Shown: in pieces, positions 4,935-41,940 of the stretch
How positions within the stretch are numbered: the first letter of the stretch is position 1
Layout of the letters: each line of letters opens with the position of its first letter
DNA from: a virus
Virus record (IMG/VR): IMGVR_UViG_3300035701_000082
Location: 1-42,374 of that record
Direction: 5' to 3' (one strand)
DNA length: 42,374 bases
The notes under the pieces: generated by a model
Databases searched by the model: none
Seen by the model: only the letters and a program-made list of their open reading frames with translations
What the model was told of the DNA's origin: nothing
Position numbers and translations under genes: made by a program

Positions 4935-5098
4935 CAGACGAAAAAGAAATTCATGCGCTTCCGAGGGTTATAATCTCAAAGCAGAAAAGGGATACCGAAG
5001 GCGTGGTAATCGACACGAAAATGGTCGAAGTCCATGCCCCGACGCTTAAAGAAGCCACAGATACGGCCAGAGACATTTGGAAAAGAGATATGAAATGA
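4931..5098 (+). CDS. Small protein upstream of TerL
   Basis: 55 residues. ATG 4931 overlaps the nuclease stop (ATGA), and its TGA at 5096-5098 overlaps the TerL ATG at 5095. The protein is charged with a probable beta-strand start (PRVIISKQKR) and a helical tail (KEATDTARDIWKRD). No family is recognised. Coupling to TerL suggests a packaging accessory. Confidence 0.5.
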   Translation: MTDEKEIHALPRVIISKQKRDTEGVVIDTKMVEVHAPTLKEATDTARDIWKRDMK

Positions 5099-7494
5099 TG
5101 GACATTCCAGGCTTCATCGGAAGGAACATCAAACTGGGCGGGCAGCAAATCAACCTATACGACTACCAGAAGAAAATTCTGAATGACATGAGCGATTTCA
5201 GAATAATCAACAAAGCACGTCAGATAGGCATAACCCAGACTATCTCATGGGAAGCGCTCGTTTATGCGCTCGCCAAGCCGAAGGAGCTCATCGGCATTAT
5301 TTCGGTCTCCGAGAGGATGTCCAAGGACGTCGTCTCCTATATCGAGGACGCTTATTTTTCATTACCTGAACAACTGAGGATGAAACTCACCGTAGATACG
5401 AAGCAGGAAAAGGTCTACAGCAACGGCTCGAGAATCCTTTCCCTTCCGAACAATCCCCGCACGGTAAGGGGGAAACCATATACGAGAATCTATTTCGACG
5501 AGGTTGCGCACTACCTGCAGGACAAGGAGATAATGGACGCTGCACTGCCAGGACTGTCGAGGGGCGGAAAGGCCACATGGATTTCAACCCCCCTGGGCAA
5601 GCGTGGGGAGTTCTACAGGATATGGACTGAGGCTGACGAAACCGGCATGACCAAGTATGAACTTCCTTATACAGTCTGCCCAGATATGGTCCAGAGGATA
5701 AATCTCCTTCGAGGGAAGATGGACGAAGAGCGCTTCCAGCAGGAATATTGCTACCACAAGGATACGGAATTCCTCACCGAAAATGGTTGGAAGAAATATT
5801 ATGAGATTAAGAATGATAAAATCGGTTGTTATGATTCCAAAACGAATAACTTGGTATTTCTCAATTATACCGATAGAACCGAAAGAAAATCCACAGATAT
5901 GATAGCGTTCGGTTACAAAAACAAGGATGTCTTAATTGTCACACCCGAACATAGGGTTTATCACTCGGTAGACAGTTCACCAGATAAATTCATAATTGAA
6001 AAGGCAGAAGATTGCCGCAAAAAAATACTCGTCAAGAGAACTGTGGATTGGAATGGTGAGGAAATTGCGACAATTAAAATTCCTAAAAAAATCAATAGAT
6101 GCAATACATGCGGTCATACTTGGGAATATTGGAAAGGTCGTTTAGTTGAAAGCAAACGAGAATGCGGGAAATGTTGGTCGTTTGATGTCAAAACAGAGGA
6201 ATCGTTTAATACCTACGATGCTGATGATTTCCTGAGGCTTGTCGGATATGTCGCAAGTGAAGGGTGCATAAACCAAAATAGGGAAACCATGATTGTAAGC
6301 CAAAAAACAGGTGAAAAATCACAAATCATGGGATTGACAATGAATAAATTCGCCAAACCAATGCAATACAAAGGTTACACATCATGGCAAATAAGCGGAA
6401 GGTGGCTTTATCGATGGTTCAGGAAAAATGTCGGAATTGGTGCATTTAACAAGGAAATACCACAGGAATTCATGCGTTTATCAAAGAGGCAGTTGAAACT
6501 TGTTTTTGATGCACTTATACTTGGTGATGGTTGGAAGGAAACTAAATGTGATTGTCTGTCATTCGGCAGTAGAAGCAAAAAACTTGCCGATAACATCATG
6601 GAAATCGGATTCAAACTCGGTTATGTGACTCATATGAGGTTGAAAAAGGATGGGATGTATCAAGTTTCATTTCATAATAAAGGGAAATATGGATGGCAAT
6701 TAAAGAGGGTTATAAAAGACTACAATGATATGGCATACTGTTTCACGGTTCCAACTGGACTTCTCATAACGAGATTCAACGGTAGGATTTCGATCCAAGG
6801 GAATTGTTGCAAGTTCCTGGACGAGACCACTTCGATGTTCCCATACGAAATGATAATGAGTTGCGTGGATGACACGCTGACAAACGTGATTCCGAAGACG
6901 AGGAATCCATTTAATATCGGCGTGGACTTCGGCAAGAAAATCGATTCGAGCGTGGTGGTAGGGACGGAACATGATGAAAGGATGGTATATCTCAGGCACA
7001 TCACGGAGTTCAAGCCGCCTACTACATACACCGAGGTAACGAATTTCCTCATAAGGAATTTCCCAGACTGGAAACCTACGAGGATTTCGGTCGACCAGAA
7101 CGGTCCTGGCGAGAAGGTTTACGAAGATCTGAGGGTTCTTGGATCAGTTGTTCGTGGCGAGATGCTTACGAGGCCGTTCAAGGAGACGCTTATCTCGTAT
7201 CTCAAGGCTCTCATGCAGGACGGGCGCCTTAGAATACCCAGGAACGAGGAACTCATAAGCCAGCTTCACTCGCTGCAAAAAGTCGTGACCGATACCGGCG
7301 TGATGAGCTACAGACATCCGACTTCCGGCGTCACGCAGCACGACGACTATGTATGGGCGCTAGCGCTGGCCGTCTACAATGAGGTCGGGACGGCTTCAGT
7401 CGCTCCTCCGGTAGTTATCAAGGGGTCCGTTTTCAAAATCGGCCAAGAAAACCGGAGAAATAACTGGCCTTTCGCCCGCAAGGTGATTTATTAA
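5095..7494 (+). CDS. terL: Terminase large subunit, interrupted by an intein
   Basis: I choose ATG 5095 (ATGA overlap) over TTG 5077. Residues 40-49 (KARQIGITQT) are a terminase-type Walker A, IYFDEV at about 133-137 is Walker B and WISTP at about 162-166 the coupling motif. After RFQQEY an intein (5749-6804) interrupts the frame, and the extein resumes with CCKFLDE. The nuclease domain follows, with acidic residues in VDFGKK, ISVDQNG and HDDYVWA. The enzyme translocates DNA into the prohead and cuts it. After splicing it would have about 447 residues, normal for TerL. Confidence 0.92.
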   Translation: MMDIPGFIGRNIKLGGQQINLYDYQKKILNDMSDFRIINKARQIGITQTISWEALVYALAKPKELIGIISVSERMSKDVVSYIEDAYFSLPEQLRMKLTVDTKQEKVYSNGSRILSLPNNPRTVRGKPYTRIYFDEVAHYLQDKEIMDAALPGLSRGGKATWISTPLGKRGEFYRIWTEADETGMTKYELPYTVCPDMVQRINLLRGKMDEERFQQEYCYHKDTEFLTENGWKKYYEIKNDKIGCYDSKTNNLVFLNYTDRTERKSTDMIAFGYKNKDVLIVTPEHRVYHSVDSSPDKFIIEKAEDCRKKILVKRTVDWNGEEIATIKIPKKINRCNTCGHTWEYWKGRLVESKRECGKCWSFDVKTEESFNTYDADDFLRLVGYVASEGCINQNRETMIVSQKTGEKSQIMGLTMNKFAKPMQYKGYTSWQISGRWLYRWFRKNVGIGAFNKEIPQEFMRLSKRQLKLVFDALILGDGWKETKCDCLSFGSRSKKLADNIMEIGFKLGYVTHMRLKKDGMYQVSFHNKGKYGWQLKRVIKDYNDMAYCFTVPTGLLITRFNGRISIQGNCCKFLDETTSMFPYEMIMSCVDDTLTNVIPKTRNPFNIGVDFGKKIDSSVVVGTEHDERMVYLRHITEFKPPTTYTEVTNFLIRNFPDWKPTRISVDQNGPGEKVYEDLRVLGSVVRGEMLTRPFKETLISYLKALMQDGRLRIPRNEELISQLHSLQKVVTDTGVMSYRHPTSGVTQHDDYVWALALAVYNEVGTASVAPPVVIKGSVFKIGQENRRNNWPFARKVIY
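5749..6804 (+). other. Intein in TerL with LAGLIDADG endonuclease domain
   Basis: 352 residues. It starts with Cys (CYHKDTEFLTENGWKKYYEI, block A), has block B around VTPEHRVYH, and ends GRISIQGN followed by Cys +1. The internal endonuclease shows two LAGLIDADG-like motifs, LRLVGYVASEG and FDALILGDG, both keeping an acidic residue. A CX2C pair (CNTCGH, CGKC) forms a zinc-finger-like insert. The DNA is much more AT-rich than the exteins, as expected for a mobile element. The penultimate residue is Gly rather than His. Confidence 0.92.
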
Positions 7495-32139: not shown

Positions 32140-32373
32140 TCACAACTTCTTCAGGGCCTCTTCGTATTCAGCCTGGAACTTCAGAAGCTGCTCTTTCTCG
32201 TCGTTGATGTTTTTTATCTGCCCGTCGCAGCGCTCCAGCGTCTCCTTGATTATCTTCATTTGCCGGCGTATCTCCGCTTTCGTCAGCACGGTCTTCGTTA
32301 CCTTCGTTGCGACTATCTCGACCTTGTTGCCTTTGACCTCGACGACCCTGTCGATTGTGGTTTTTTTCTCCAT
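32140..32373 (-). CDS. Coiled-coil protein at the end of the leftward operon
   Basis: 77 residues. A short beta start (IDRVVEVKGNKVEIVATKV) is followed by a long coiled coil (RRQMKIIKETLERCDGQIKNI...LLKFQAEYEEALKK). Its first 61 nt overlap the 3' end of the transglutaminase-like gene in another frame. GGAGGTCCAAA precedes the ATG. It may be a partner of that protein; no family is known. Confidence 0.6.
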   Translation of the reverse strand: MEKKTTIDRVVEVKGNKVEIVATKVTKTVLTKAEIRRQMKIIKETLERCDGQIKNINDEKEQLLKFQAEYEEALKKL

Positions 32374-34037
32374 TTTGGACCTCCCTGCGTTATATCGAAC
32401 TCATCCTTCACCTTTGCGCCGAAGTTCACGGATCCGTCAATTATCCATATATTATTCTCGTTTATGACGTAGTTTATCCTGTAGTTCGTGCCCGTGTTCT
32501 TCAGGTCGGTGATCTTGACCGGGTTATACTTGTTGCTCGTGTTCTCTACGATGTAAATGCTGCCGTCCTTCCATACCAGGTTGAAGTAATGACCTTCGTT
32601 CCCCCAGAAACCGAGGGCGCCGAAGACGTCCTTAATCCCGGCCCGACGTGCAAGCGCTATTCTGAGACTCCCTGAATCTTCACAGTTATGAACTACTATA
32701 TCAGTTTCTGGAAGATATATGCCGTGATTCTCGGTTTCTATGTCATAGCATTCATCTTCGCCAGCTTCTTCAATTTTCCTCACAATTACTTGGTCAAAAC
32801 AACTACCTTTCTTCCTTACATTCAATTCCCATATAGGATTCTTTCCAAGACCGCCATGTTTATCTATAAGACGCATGTGAGTCGAAAATCCAAGCATTCT
32901 ATTGAGAATCCTATATTGAAGCGCCAATTTGCTGGAAATCGTTCTGAAAACCCTGCAATTTCTGTATGTCGAATCCGCATTTAATCCTTCTAACACGGCC
33001 TCTAATGCAGGTTTTCCATAATTCAATGTCAGAAGATGCTTGTTCTTCGCCCCCCTGCCATATTCCGATAATTCCTTTGCGAAAACTTTTGAATTTATGC
33101 TTATGTATTTTTCATGCCACCTAAAAGGAATAGCATATTTATTACAGAGCGATTTTACCCATTCTTTTTGTTTTTCCTTTGGATGACCATCCTTACCGGA
33201 TATTGCGAATCTGCTATCTTCGACCCATCCATCTGCCACATATAGCCCTCTTAATTTATGCAAATCCGGATCTCCGCCGATTATGCCCATCGGAATCGTA
33301 TCGGGTGTGAGCATTTTATCTCCGACTTTTAATTCAGACGCCCGTATCTCTTTTCCATCAGAAAGCAACAAACGGTGGTCTTTCGTGCATTTCAGATAAC
33401 ACCCATTGCTAAGTTTTATCTGTAAAATCGGCAGTATTCCCTTGCTGAATTTATTTGTTACATGAGTCCATTTACCGCCCATACCGGCGATTTCGTCACC
33501 GATTTTGATATCCGATATTTCTTTAAATTCATAATCACTCCCCAGAAGCATCGTATCGGCAGTCAAGCAGTCTCCTGCCCCGAGAGTGTAAGTCTCGACC
33601 GGAAGCTGCCATTCGTCCATGACTCCGTTGTATGCGAAGTTGTCGCTGACGTATCTTATGGACACGGTGAAAATGGCTTCGAGAGTCTTGAAATCAGGCA
33701 GCGTCTGGTAACTCGTCAGAAAGTCCCTGATGTCCATAGGCAGCGGGAAGAGTTTCTTATCCAGCACCCAACGCTTCGTATAGACGAACTTCGTCGTCTT
33801 GAAATTAGCATTGAGATAGTCTTCAAACGGACTCTTTTTAATCACGTTGTTCAGGCCGATTATCTCCTGGTTCTTGTTATCCACGATGTTTTTCAGAGAG
33901 CCGTTCTCATTCCGGCAGTCCTGCAGATCCTTGCTGAATGCGTCCAATGTCTCCACGGTCGTTTTATACTTGCCTGCGAGAAGCGCCTGCTCACTGAAAA
34001 CCTCCGGGAAAATTATCCTGGCTATCGTTTCTCTCAT
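32313..34037 (-). CDS. Transglutaminase-like cysteine protease, interrupted by an intein at the catalytic Cys
   Basis: 574 residues from ATG 34037 (ATGA overlap; GTG 34049 is an in-frame alternative). N-terminal 85 residues are helical, then the core begins (FTVSIRYVSDNFAYNG...WQLPVETYTLGAGD). An intein (33569-32685) follows, and the extein resumes CEDSGSLRIALARRAGIKDVF. The Cys is the nucleophile of the GDCED motif, His lies in NEGHYFNLVW and an acidic residue in IYIVENT, giving a transglutaminase-type triad. Spliced length is about 279 residues. Relatives include protein-modifying enzymes and the pseudomurein endoisopeptidases of methanogen viruses, so a lysin or a host-protein modifier are both possible. 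Confidence 0.8.
   Translation of the reverse strand: MRETIARIIFPEVFSEQALLAGKYKTTVETLDAFSKDLQDCRNENGSLKNIVDNKNQEIIGLNNVIKKSPFEDYLNANFKTTKFVYTKRWVLDKKLFPLPMDIRDFLTSYQTLPDFKTLEAIFTVSIRYVSDNFAYNGVMDEWQLPVETYTLGAGDCLTADTMLLGSDYEFKEISDIKIGDEIAGMGGKWTHVTNKFSKGILPILQIKLSNGCYLKCTKDHRLLLSDGKEIRASELKVGDKMLTPDTIPMGIIGGDPDLHKLRGLYVADGWVEDSRFAISGKDGHPKEKQKEWVKSLCNKYAIPFRWHEKYISINSKVFAKELSEYGRGAKNKHLLTLNYGKPALEAVLEGLNADSTYRNCRVFRTISSKLALQYRILNRMLGFSTHMRLIDKHGGLGKNPIWELNVRKKGSCFDQVIVRKIEEAGEDECYDIETENHGIYLPETDIVVHNCEDSGSLRIALARRAGIKDVFGALGFWGNEGHYFNLVWKDGSIYIVENTSNKYNPVKITDLKNTGTNYRINYVINENNIWIIDGSVNFGAKVKDEFDITQGGPKWRKKPQSTGSSRSKATRSR
32685..33569 (-). other. Intein in the transglutaminase-like protein
   Basis: 295 residues, starting CLTADTMLLGSDYEFKEISD (block A), with block B at CTKDHRLLL, block F at DECYDIETENHGIYL and ending DIVVHN before Cys +1. 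LAGLIDADG-type motifs LRGLYVADGW and LEGLNADST each keep an Asp, so the endonuclease may be active. The DNA is AT-rich relative to the exteins. After splicing, the +1 Cys becomes the catalytic Cys of the host protein. Confidence 0.92.
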
Positions 34038-34243
34038 AGTCCCACCCACTCGATTACTACAAACGGAATGCCGTTATTCTTGTCGGCGTCCATGTGGAAA
34101 TGTATCGCCCGGACAGATGAACTTACATCCTTTCCGCCGATCATCACTTTGCTGTTTATGGCGTTATCGCCAATTTCCACATAGATTTCCTTACCGTCAA
34201 ACATTCCTTTTTTGACGATTCCTTTTATGAATCTTCTGCCCAT
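34034..34243 (-). CDS. Small beta-rich protein
   Basis: 69 residues. FIKGIVKKGMFDGKEIYVEIGDNAINSKVMIGGKDVSSSVRAIHFHMD appears to be a compact beta-barrel. GGTGAGAAT precedes the ATG and its stop overlaps the next ATG (ATGA). No family is recognised. Confidence 0.55.
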   Translation of the reverse strand: MGRRFIKGIVKKGMFDGKEIYVEIGDNAINSKVMIGGKDVSSSVRAIHFHMDADKNNGIPFVVIEWVGL

Positions 34244-36246: not shown

Positions 36247-36930
36247 TTATACTTTCTTCAACTCCGCTTCCGAAGCCGTCTTCTTTTGGGGCTTCTTGAC
36301 AGTGCCAAGTATCACCGTTCCCTTGCGTATCACGGCGATTATTTCACAGGTTTCTTCCTTGTGGAATCCGGCGCATATCCTGAGGGCCGAAATGAATTTT
36401 GCCGCAATGTTTCCGAAAAAAGTTATTATGCCCTCTCCGGCCTTTATGCCCCATCCGGCCTTTATGCCCGTTCCGGCCTTTATGCCCCATCCGGCCTCTA
36501 TGCCCCATCCGGCCTCTATGCCCCATCCGGCCTTTATGCCCTCTCCGGCCTCTATGCCCTCTCCGGCCTCTATGCCCTCTCCGGCCTTTATGCCCCATCC
36601 GGCCTTTATGCCCCATCCGGCCTCTATGCCCCATCCGGCCTCTATGCCCCATCCGGCCTTTATGCCCTCTCCGGCCTCTATGCCCTCTCCGGCCTTTATG
36701 CCCCATCCGGCCTTTATGCCCCATCCGGCCTCTATGCCCCATCTGGCCTTTATGCCCGTTCCGGCCTCTGCGAAAATGTAGCCGGAAGCCTTGATAGACT
36801 TCTTGAACTTCACATAGAGCAGATCCGCTTCGAACTCGATATGGCCGTCGAAATCGACCGAATCCTCTTTATAAAAGTTGTCCTTGTCCAAGTCCTTCTT
36901 GGTGATTTTCAACGTTTTCTTTTCGCTCAT
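36247..36930 (-). CDS. Hexapeptide-repeat beta-solenoid protein
   Basis: 227 residues. Residues about 58-165 are 18 nearly perfect hexapeptides of the form G-I-K/E-A-G-W/E/T, flanked by non-repeat ends (KITKKDLDKDNFYKEDS; FISALRICAGFHKEETCEIIAVI). A six-residue period with Ile at a fixed place suggests a beta-helix or bactofilin-like solenoid. K/E and W/E choices follow a longer pattern of about seven units. The gene is first in its leftward operon, with GGGAGGGAATAAT as ribosome site and a TATA box at 36982-36975. Its role is unknown; a DNA-mimic or polymer-forming scaffold would fit. Confidence 0.65.
   Translation of the reverse strand: MSEKKTLKITKKDLDKDNFYKEDSVDFDGHIEFEADLLYVKFKKSIKASGYIFAEAGTGIKARWGIEAGWGIKAGWGIKAGEGIEAGEGIKAGWGIEAGWGIEAGWGIKAGWGIKAGEGIEAGEGIEAGEGIKAGWGIEAGWGIEAGWGIKAGTGIKAGWGIKAGEGIITFFGNIAAKFISALRICAGFHKEETCEIIAVIRKGTVILGTVKKPQKKTASEAELKKV
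36432..36772. repeat. 18-bp tandem repeat inside the solenoid gene
   Basis: About 18 copies of an 18-bp unit, plus-strand form GGCCTTTATGCCCCATCC with variants CTC/CTT and CCATCC/CTCTCC/CGTTCC. It is a coding repeat with silent and missense variation confined to three positions. Confidence 0.9.
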
Positions 36931-38151: not shown

Positions 38152-40194
38152 CTATCCTATATAATTCTCTCCATCTATCTGGTCCTTAGACCGCAGACTC
38201 AATAGCGGATTATAATTAGTCCCGCTTATGTTGTAAATCTCTTCCATCCTCAGCCATTCGTCGATGTGCCTGGACGCCGTCCTCTCGGATCCTGCGTTCC
38301 CAGACCGGACGAGCCACTTGATGAGCTCCACTTTGTCTATAGGCCCGTCTCCCATCTTCTGATAAAGTAAACTCTGTATCTGGGTTCTGTTCGTCCTCAG
38401 CTTTTTCATCAGGTATTTTCTCCAGTCAAGCTTCTTGCGCACCGCATACTTGTAGTCCATAAATGCCTTTTGCTGGGTTCTTAAATTGAAAAAGTTGTTG
38501 TTCACGAACATGTGGTTCTTTATCAGGAACTCGGTCACGGCTCTCTCTTCCTTCGTCTTGGCCACGCTGCGCATTATCTGGCTCATCTCATCCCTGGAGA
38601 AGACCAGTTCGACGAACTCTCCCCTCGAAATAAGCGCATTGTAATCGTCGAGGAACTTGAGGTTCACCATGTTGTTGTAGTCGAAGAGCAGTTTTCCTTC
38701 CCATAAGAAGTGCTTGGGCAGGTCGGCGTTGTCCTTCGAGTATGTGTAATTCGTGGCTATCCTGTCCGCAGGATCCGTCTCCGTGACTCCCTTGAGAAAC
38801 TCTATCATCTCCTGCTGCCGGAAAAACCTCGCTGCATCCTGCACCCAGATGACGACGTCCTCATGGTTATTTTCAAACAACAACCTGTAGATATACGGCT
38901 CAGACACTTTCTTTGCGACGACGACCTTGAGACCTTGTTTTGCGAGTGCTATTTTCAGATGATAAGAGTTATGTGTTAAGATTCCATCTGCCAAGAAGTT
39001 GGAAAATGTCGTAGCAATATCGAATAATGTGACATTTTTTTGGCTTTCTCGACTGATTTCCAAAATCGGTGTGGGGATAAGTTCAGCTTTCTCAATTCCC
39101 AATAATATTTTATGTCCTCTTCCGTGTAAGGTCTCAATTTCACCCCGTTGTGATTTATTCCATTCCTTCGCATACAAAAATTTTTCATCACAAGTAATTG
39201 TTTTGTCTTCACTTTCGTAAAGGGAAGTATCTTTTCTATCAAAAAAAGCAGATTTTCCGTCCCCTTTAGATTCACCGCATATATCGGCAGATGATAAATT
39301 TTTGTATTCTTCGTATGGGGCATTATCCTTGCATATTTGAGGTTGAATTTTTCCTTTATCCAGTATATCAATTCTTTGCCCGTGTTCGTTATGCCTATTT
39401 GTGCCCTCAAAACTACACACGTCTCGTTTTTGTCCTGATGATGTCTCCGCTTGCAAGGAACAATCATAACCGAACCTTCCCCGTCGATTATCCCAGCTAT
39501 ATACGCCCATTCCTCTGATGTCAGGTTCGGCTCTACCATACACATAAACTATATCTTTGGTATTTAAATCCTTTGCAGATGTCCATCCTCGCCGAGTATA
39601 AAACCGATGTTCTTCGGAACATTTTATTGCTCTGCCCAATATTTTTATAGTTATCAGATTCGTGGCTTTAACCGTTTGTGTTTGAATGACTTTTGTCGGT
39701 TCTATCTCTTTTGTGTCTTCGTTGAATCCGAGAACATATTCCCCGATTTTTATTTCATCGATTCTTTTTATTCCAGTCGGCGTATATATCCCCGTTTCTG
39801 GACTTAGACATTTGCCGATGCCTGCGATGCCCTTTATGAAAGCCAGATGCGTCAAATCCATTTTCATTTTTTCGACGATTTCATAGATGTCGCTGTAGAA
39901 AACCGTGATTTTCTTGGGCAGTTTTACCTCGGCAAGCCGCCTCCTTAGTTCATTCTCGGCCAGCAAATCGCTCTCCATCTGGTCCTGGCGGATCCTTTCA
40001 GGGTCGATTTCAGGTTTCACGACTCCGTTCTCGGTCATCTTGTCCCTGAAGACGTCGAGGTTCTCGCCCGCTTTCATGTGGTCATCGAACTCGCTCTCCA
40101 GGTCGACGGTCTGGGGATCCACGCCCTGAGAAACCAAAAGCTTCTCTGCGTTCTTCTTGAAGGATTCCTTGCTCCGCTCGATTCGGTTCATCAT
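38152..40194 (-). CDS. AAA+ ATPase (replication or helicase-loader type), interrupted by an intein in Walker A
   Basis: 680 residues (ATG 40194; a second ATG at 40191). Residues 1-128 are N-terminal helices ending in IKGIAGIGK; the intein follows, and the extein resumes SYHLKIALAKQG. Joined, GIAGIGKS is a Walker A. VVIWVQDAARFF is Walker B, KLLFDYNNM a sensor-1-like strand and LISRGEFVEL an arginine-finger-like segment. The C-terminal 60 residues carry a winged-helix-like domain (VELIKWLVRSGNAGSERTASRHIDEWLRMEEI). This fits phage AAA+ replication ATPases. Spliced length is about 399 residues. It is the main replication gene I can recognise. Confidence 0.78.
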   Translation of the reverse strand: MMNRIERSKESFKKNAEKLLVSQGVDPQTVDLESEFDDHMKAGENLDVFRDKMTENGVVKPEIDPERIRQDQMESDLLAENELRRRLAEVKLPKKITVFYSDIYEIVEKMKMDLTHLAFIKGIAGIGKCLSPETGIYTPTGIKRIDEIKIGEYVLGFNEDTKEIEPTKVIQTQTVKATNLITIKILGRAIKCSEEHRFYTRRGWTSAKDLNTKDIVYVYGRAEPDIRGMGVYSWDNRRGRFGYDCSLQAETSSGQKRDVCSFEGTNRHNEHGQRIDILDKGKIQPQICKDNAPYEEYKNLSSADICGESKGDGKSAFFDRKDTSLYESEDKTITCDEKFLYAKEWNKSQRGEIETLHGRGHKILLGIEKAELIPTPILEISRESQKNVTLFDIATTFSNFLADGILTHNSYHLKIALAKQGLKVVVAKKVSEPYIYRLLFENNHEDVVIWVQDAARFFRQQEMIEFLKGVTETDPADRIATNYTYSKDNADLPKHFLWEGKLLFDYNNMVNLKFLDDYNALISRGEFVELVFSRDEMSQIMRSVAKTKEERAVTEFLIKNHMFVNNNFFNLRTQQKAFMDYKYAVRKKLDWRKYLMKKLRTNRTQIQSLLYQKMGDGPIDKVELIKWLVRSGNAGSERTASRHIDEWLRMEEIYNISGTNYNPLLSLRSKDQIDGENYIG
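38968..39810 (-). other. Intein in the AAA+ ATPase, with the endonuclease out of frame
   Basis: 281 codons. N-terminal splicing part: CLSPETGIYTPTGIKRIDEI (block A), CSEEHRFYTRRGWTSAKDL (block B). C-terminal part: NVTLFDIATTFSNFLADGILTHN (blocks F, G) before Ser +1. Between them the intein frame stays open for about 150 codons but has no LAGLIDADG motif. The endonuclease motif is in the +1 frame (39545-38976). The splicing modules therefore look intact, while the middle reads as an unrelated hydrophilic linker. Confidence 0.88.
38976..39545 (-). CDS. LAGLIDADG homing endonuclease nested out of frame in the intein
   Basis: 189 residues, ATG 39545, in a frame shifted by one base from the ATPase-intein frame. 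WAYIAGIIDGEGSVMIV is a LAGLIDADG motif with the catalytic acidic residue, followed by a pattern of single-motif enzymes (RAQIGITNTGKELIYWIKEKFN...YHLPIYAVNLKGTENLLFLIEKILPF). It has one motif, so it would act as a dimer. TTTAAATA about 20-25 nt ahead of the ATG might be its own TATA box. Its last 17 codons overlap intein blocks F/G. Confidence 0.8.
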   Translation of the reverse strand: MCMVEPNLTSEEWAYIAGIIDGEGSVMIVPCKRRHHQDKNETCVVLRAQIGITNTGKELIYWIKEKFNLKYARIMPHTKNTKIYHLPIYAVNLKGTENLLFLIEKILPFTKVKTKQLLVMKNFCMRRNGINHNGVKLRPYTEEDIKYYWELRKLNLSPHRFWKSVEKAKKMSHYSILLRHFPTSWQMES

Positions 40195-41729: not shown

Positions 41730-41940
41730 GTCCATCCCTCCCCGCTTTGATTCTTGCGATTGCGTTCTTCCCTTCCAGCGTCTCTTTTATCGCTTCCAGT
41801 TCGTTGACTATGCGCCCGCAGTCCGGGCATACGCCGCCCTGCGTCTCCACATGCCCAGTCTTGGCGTTCTCACCCTGGCAGTTCGCACACACATCCTCTT
41901 TCATAACACCCCTTCCTTCCCGAATATTCCGGTCTTTCAT
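41719..41940 (-). CDS. Zinc-ribbon protein, first gene of leftward operon
   Basis: 73 residues from ATG 41940, which lies 22 nt after the TATA box and would be leaderless; an internal ATG at 41904 has a good ribosome site (GGAAGGGGTGTT) and gives 61 residues. CANCQGENA...CPDCGRIVNELEAIKETLEG is a CX2C...CX2C ribbon followed by a helix. Probably an early regulator. Confidence 0.6.
   Translation of the reverse strand: MKDRNIREGRGVMKEDVCANCQGENAKTGHVETQGGVCPDCGRIVNELEAIKETLEGKNAIARIKAGRDGHGF

Follow-up and report, generated by a model that had tools for sequence, protein, structure and literature searches.

A viral mini-intein with a homing endonuclease gene probably overprinted in a second reading frame

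Homing endonucleases are translated as free-standing proteins from introns or as fusions with inteins (PMC3943268). The DNA analysed here, in the following called the window, is a stretch of 42,374 nucleotides from an IMG/VR virus record and contains an ATPase gene which is interrupted by an intein. Within this intein, an intact endonuclease gene lies in the +1 frame, and the question arises how such a gene can be housed in an intein whose own frame stays open. Based on the anatomy of the locus, the conservation of its layout, the selection acting on either frame, the structures predicted and the presence or absence of inteins in relatives, all examined computationally, we suggest that the element is a mobile mini-intein with a homing endonuclease overprinted as a separate, overlapping gene that would be translated separately. 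We assign to this reading a probability of roughly 0.86. The locus comprises the following features:

38152–40194, minus strand: precursor of an AAA-type ATPase (host gene), 680 codons open; N-extein 40194–39811, C-extein 38967–38155
38968–39810, minus strand: mini-intein of 281 residues; C1 at 39810, block B CSEEH, terminal HN/S at 38968, +1 Ser
39532–39810, minus strand: N-terminal Hint half, intein residues 1–93 (AlphaFold2 blocks with pLDDT 91–96)
38968–39090, minus strand: C-terminal Hint half, intein residues 241–281 (AlphaFold2 blocks with pLDDT 82–96)
39091–39531, minus strand: linker in the intein frame, residues 94–240, predicted to be disordered (pLDDT about 26–50)
38976–39545, minus strand: overprinted single-motif LAGLIDADG homing endonuclease ORF, 189 aa, +1 relative to the intein frame (Pfam, PHROG, AlphaFold2)
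39081–39545, minus strand: endonuclease core, residues 1–155, its end placed by homologue alignment
39474–39506, minus strand: LAGLIDADG motif AYIAGIIDGEG, near-invariant in the endonuclease alignments

The intein corresponds to residues 129–409 of the 680-codon ORF and splits the Walker A motif at GIAGIGK/S; the ATPase C-extein yields weak matches to AAA_8 and phrog_1250. An earlier note on this DNA had placed the splicing blocks in one frame with the ATPase, and this is the case: C1, SEEH, HN and the +1 Ser, which together characterize a class 1 intein, are all encoded in the single ORF, and the Pfam profile Intein_splicing matches the intein with 47.9 bits (cut-off 35.8). With a 12-row alignment AlphaFold2 predicts that both halves form the Hint fold, with pLDDT mostly above 90, and the nearest PDB folds are the DnaB, gp41-1 and RecA mini-inteins (Foldseek TM 0.85, target, to the Npu DnaB intein). 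The insertion point, between block B and block F, is the canonical endonuclease site, which is described as highly conserved (PMC6801210).

The protein encoded in the +1 frame, already recognized in the earlier note as a LAGLIDADG endonuclease with its own ATG, carries the motif YIAGIIDGEG and matches LAGLIDADG_1 of Pfam (24.1 bits, cut-off 23.1) as well as phrog_5046 (E=2e-15). Its predicted structure (AlphaFold2, 12-row alignment) has a pLDDT of 84.7 and a pTM of 0.81, and its nearest PDB folds are I-MsoI and I-CreI with E values of about 6e-8 to 1e-6. I-MsoI and I-CreI act as homodimers. A single-motif enzyme would have to dimerise, and a copy fused inside an intein would probably be hindered in doing so, a hindrance which a separate gene would avoid. 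The family phrog_5046 is labelled 'HNH endonuclease'; it matches all six LAGLIDADG-type endonucleases scanned (those of the window, L041, L088, L160, the Gordonia antisense gene and DotProduct), and since the LAGLIDADG motif is present in its members from the window, L041 and L160, the label looks wrong.

The window contains two further inteins, in the terminase large subunit (5077–7494, plus strand) and in a transglutaminase-like protein (32313–34049, minus strand), both with a LAGLIDADG-type endonuclease in frame, so that the 42-kb virus has three inteins in total. A tandem repeat of 18 bp in 19 copies (91% matches) is found at 36426–36767 and encodes GIKAGWGIEAG-type repeats in the ORF 36930–36247 (minus strand).

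Single-sequence scans of viral contigs with the window intein, its endonuclease and the ATPase C-extein revealed no relatives, as did tblastn against plasmids, and a search of 398 genomes from the phylum of G001 did not turn up the ATPase. Relatives were found by scanning IMG/VR with a two-row alignment of the window endonuclease and a free-standing Caulobacter phage homologue. In the first scan the three best matches and three others sit within a much longer ORF, each in the +1 frame relative to that ORF, and these six long ORFs are glycosyltransferases with Hint blocks flanking the hidden gene on both sides. Later scans added L088, L089, L090, L097, L160 and L331. The layout is thus shared by 12 further loci, 11 viral contigs and one Bathyarchaeota MAG (L160), which makes 13 with the window. 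When these related inteins are compared, as the earlier note had proposed, the endonuclease gene turns out to be +1 in all 13 same-strand loci. The host genes of the further loci encode GT4-type glycosyltransferases (interrupted at several sites), DUF2201 metallopeptidase/VWA proteins, a DegT aminotransferase and a DUF5131 protein; these families are unrelated to one another and to the AAA-type ATPase of the window. C1, the terminal HN and a +1 C/S are present in 12 nested loci, and the block B His is replaced by Asn in L004 and L006. The endonuclease frame is intact in 13/13 loci with the catalytic motif conserved, and in the 12 loci measured the hidden gene ends 3–33 residues ahead of the intein end. 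The window endonuclease is 20–35% identical to its nested kin. The endonuclease scans missed L331 owing to one motif letter, and prevalence is therefore underestimated. Several matches with the endonuclease in an open frame (L027, L047, L051/L096, L069 and L119/L121/L122) were set aside, as the overlaps are short and no Hint domain or long host ORF was seen.

Each hidden ORF opens with an ATG shortly before the conserved domain and has an in-frame stop 1–29 codons upstream. Directly before the hidden ATG lies a sigma70-like promoter which is the best of the whole host ORF in L025, L041, L048 and L097 and ranks second in L004 and third in L089 (Fisher P 9e-9 for this placement, with three of these loci related). 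In L025 (TTGACG-17-TATAAT) and L048 (TTGAAT-18-TATAAT) the promoter ends 7 nt before the ATG, a spacing as for a near-leaderless mRNA, to judge from the sequences. L041, L090 and L004 show a Shine-Dalgarno-like stretch ahead of the start codon, and a uniform signal of this kind across the loci is absent. At the endonuclease start of the window neither a Shine-Dalgarno sequence nor a convincing sigma70 promoter was found. The TATA-like sequence which the earlier note had seen ahead of the gene is present at 39568–39561, and two features are relevant here:

39561–39568, minus strand: TTTAAATA, an element resembling an archaeal TATA box (exact match) within the intein coding sequence, 29 nt before the second ATG
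39537–39539, minus strand: second in-frame ATG (Met3), to judge from the TATA-to-ATG spacing a likely start codon if the endonuclease mRNA is leaderless

Before the gene at 41940 (minus strand) the element TTTATATA stands at the same distance from its ATG as TTTAAATA from Met3, within 1 nt. The sequence TTTAWATA is enriched in the window (9 vs 2.4 expected), pointing to an archaeal host; this or similar AT-rich elements are found upstream of 41940 (minus), 11522 (plus), 9169 (plus) and 20580 (plus). Reading TTTAAATA as a TATA box depends on an archaeal host, which is itself likely but unproven. For the window, the likeliest though unproven reading is an archaeal virus whose endonuclease mRNA is leaderless.

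Instead of a separate start, the ribosome might enter the endonuclease frame by programmed +1 frameshifting and return by a −1 shift, so that some intein copies contain the endonuclease. The window would offer a suitable site for the return, as a −1 slip on the run of seven A near the 3′ border of the endonuclease, in GCC AAA AAA ATG, leads straight to the frame of block F. However, the loci have no recurring −1 slippery heptamer at their 3′ ends, and the hidden ORFs are closed by a stop of their own ahead of the intein end. The ATG just before the conserved domain with its upstream stop, together with the promoter or Shine-Dalgarno signals at the ATG in several loci, also speaks against this reading, which we consider unlikely.

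The earlier note was right that the intein frame stays open across the endonuclease, and the open overlap is longer than its figure of about 150 codons: 189 codons are kept open, 155 of which belong to the endonuclease core. For a gene encoding this endonuclease protein, the exact probability that the intein frame is free of stops is 1.1e-4 under extein codon usage and 1.5e-5 under the gene's own usage; codon shuffling yields 8.0 stops expected in the intein frame, and the third frame holds 25. When 12 loci were tested jointly, not one stop appeared in the host frame within the endonuclease over 189–261 codons each, where 5–17 are expected per locus, and the other frame has 9–33. The per-locus probabilities range from 3.7e-3 to 5e-11, and their summed log10P is −58 when each gene's own codon usage is assumed and −69 with that of the extein; as nested loci were chosen for an open host frame, each single P has to be discounted by a selection factor of a few hundred, which the combined value far exceeds.

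In the +1 layout each host stop needs a T at position 3 of an endonuclease codon before AA, AG or GA, and therefore every host stop can be removed synonymously. Such a T occurs at 0/131 sites in the nested genes of the 12 loci vs 974/1596 (61%) in 75 free-standing relatives, and the share of T at other sites is alike (0.61 and 0.64). L331, examined separately, has no stops in its host frame and 0/19 such sites with T. The earlier note had named stops in the linker frame of relatives as the sign that would count against it; the linker is never broken in nested relatives, and the 974 stops lie in the free-standing ones. In the opposite frame of the same strand, stops are unavoidable in 11/13 proteins owing to Met followed by K/N/T/I/M, which may explain why the +1 frame alone is seen.

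Both frames differ in the kind of selection acting on them. In related pairs the endonuclease identity is 0.42–0.56, whereas the host-frame identity in the same columns is 0.19–0.33; from the conservation of the endonuclease alone 0.18–0.23 is expected, and some pairs lie modestly above this. Variation is highest at endonuclease codon position 3 within the gene but at host codon position 3 in the Hint parts, the switch occurring at the gene borders. Host-frame identity near expectation and this codon-position pattern argue that the linker is mostly a passive reading which need only stay open. For the ATPase intein of the window no close relative was found, and dN/dS is therefore not computable for the window itself.

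Alternatively, the insert could be a decaying relic: a once free-standing endonuclease gene that came to lie out of frame, now inactive or unexpressed and tolerated by the intein. The missing ribosome-binding site and the low identity of the window endonuclease to its nested kin would fit such a relic. Against it stand the intact frame and conserved motif in every locus, a codon-position conservation which tracks the endonuclease frame, the promoters at the hidden start in several loci and a dN/dS of 0.07 in the Gordonia version (see below), and this makes a relic highly unlikely.

The earlier note had offered as its alternative a rare pair of compensating frameshifts. Two such indels, from assembly or sequencing error or from recent mutation, might have struck an ordinary intein with an in-frame endonuclease; the endonuclease occupies exactly the canonical insertion site and the A7 run lies near the 3′ border, but the same +1 layout in 12 other independent loci with wholly open host frames, the many stops in the linker frame of free-standing relatives, the about 8 stops that a fresh frameshift pair would expose in the window and a single-motif endonuclease unlike the two-motif in-frame type render this scarcely credible. 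Given twelve further loci, chance or sequencing error as the source of the layout is untenable. A group I intron was rejected, as the Rfam search of the window gave no match and the host reading frame runs on through the element. The mini-intein with a separate overprinted homing gene, which the earlier note had named first, is supported by the comparison.

We suggest the following course of events for the overprinted mini-intein. The precursor frame would yield an ATPase interrupted by the mini-intein, whose Hint halves (residues 1–93 and 241–281) would fold around the long disordered loop and splice out. Translated in the +1 frame from a separate start codon, the DNA of the loop would yield a LAGLIDADG protein with one motif, belonging to the homodimeric I-CreI/I-MsoI type. 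As a free enzyme it would cut host-gene alleles that lack the intein, whose repair would then bring in the intein along with the hidden gene. The intein frame is held open mainly by avoiding third-position T before AA, AG or GA, leaving the amino acids of the endonuclease unchanged.

In a tree of 87 endonucleases the nested state needs 2 changes vs 11.4 with shuffled labels (0/500); the node uniting all nested endonucleases has weak support (41) and takes in five free-standing members. One or few old origins fit this tree. Around the free-standing L026, L040, L080, L099 and L140 of the nested clade no intein was seen when the three same-strand frames were read by eye. In a scan with the glycosyltransferase, most relatives among the matches listed align over ~1140 bp to both exteins and are without intein.

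The layout also exists in the opposite orientation. Culturable Gordonia phages have an intein in their MuF capsid protein, and a relative of the same endonuclease, again matching phrog_5046, is encoded antisense within it. At this site (PHEVIN/CRC) three different inteins are found among Gordonia phages, each with an antisense codon-aligned ORF, and related phages are empty there:

L416, L415, L417, L412 (Nordenberg, Lennon, Barsten, SchottB): MuF intein with an antisense LAGLIDADG gene
L413, L418 (Fosterous, Angelicage): Fosterous-type MuF intein; antisense ORF with HTH and a weak PD-(D/E)XK-like match to REase_MTES_1575, below the Pfam cut-off
L419, L420 (Kewpiedoll, Keitabear): Kewpiedoll-type MuF intein; antisense ORF similar-looking to the Fosterous type

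Between Nordenberg and Barsten, dN/dS is 0.07 for the antisense endonuclease, 1.72 for the host frame there, and 0.29 and 0.36 for the flanking Hint parts. For Fosterous/Angelicage and Kewpiedoll/Keitabear the antisense ORF has a dN/dS of 0.22–0.25 vs 0.49–0.62 in the host frame there. Barsten and SchottB share an intein of 100% identity although their exteins are 84–89% identical, and so do Nordenberg and Lennon with exteins of 95.5–97.2% identity; Ailee and many close relatives have an empty site. In these GC-rich phages openness alone is not significant, and the antisense case therefore rests on dN/dS and transfer. Identical inteins in diverged Gordonia genes and the presence or absence of inteins in relatives point, indirectly, to homing cleavage. 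An old, recurring lineage, promoter or Shine-Dalgarno signals before several hidden genes and the antisense version all go beyond the earlier note.

Some known systems resemble the window in part. In the split-intein 'fractured genes' which Dassa et al. reportedly described in 2009, a free-standing endonuclease lies between the intein halves and the host gene is broken in two. A separate endonuclease gene between intein halves is common to both, but the window has a single 680-codon ORF in place of two separate ones, with intein and host forming one continuous overlapping frame. Group I introns with I-CreI or I-MsoI likewise provide a free endonuclease of the same single-motif dimeric fold, whereas Rfam finds no intron in the window. 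The canonical full-length inteins (PI-SceI, VMA, CDC21) share the Hint domain, the insertion site between block B and block F, a LAGLIDADG nuclease and the homing logic, but fuse the endonuclease in frame (PMC3943268), while that of the window is single-motif and, as in the other same-strand loci, outside the Hint frame. Nor is the element a mini-intein in the strict sense of lacking an endonuclease: its own frame is free of one, yet the +1 frame holds an intact endonuclease gene.

The nearest published case is the ShiLan element together with the Pacc40 gp60 insertion, an out-of-frame HNH endonuclease in a phage methylase for which no splicing domain was found (Arsenault, Gosselin and Gogarten 2025, PMC11855218). 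The ShiLan-type insert is thought to stay in the methylase (PMC11855218). These elements and the window have in common an out-of-frame endonuclease ORF in an insertion, an open host gene and presumed homing in phages. However, they encode an HNH enzyme and are devoid of an intein or intron splicing domain, whereas the window has a LAGLIDADG gene within a complete Hint domain with an Intein_splicing match. The C5 DNA methylase gp64 of Mycobacterium phage DotProduct (L409:2122–4113) carries a LAGLIDADG endonuclease ORF at 2507–2962 in the +1 frame and gives no Pfam match to a Hint domain; with a P(open) of 0.07 and 0/12 at-risk sites with T, we read it as an insertion of the ShiLan kind that encodes a LAGLIDADG enzyme. 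Searches of the open-licence literature revealed no intein whose endonuclease is out of frame; subscription papers and preprints were mostly beyond reach, and priority is not certain.

We think it probable that overprinted inteins are an unrecognized, widespread and old class of mobile elements, with the endonuclease in the +1 frame or antisense, which evolved repeatedly with different endonuclease families. If so, many 'mini-inteins with a disordered insertion' may be overprinted elements, and gene callers may hide many homing endonucleases. The textbook rule of in-frame fusion would be broken, as the window endonuclease would be a free protein from an overlapping gene, much as in introns. 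The layout would show a way for inteins to carry dimeric single-motif endonucleases and to regulate them apart from the host protein, and suggests a testable route by which a mini-intein gains mobility without evolving a fused domain. In addition, it would provide a clean natural system for the evolution of overlapping genes, with one frame selected for its protein and the other only to stay open, and in the Gordonia phages the layout can be tested directly in laboratory hosts.
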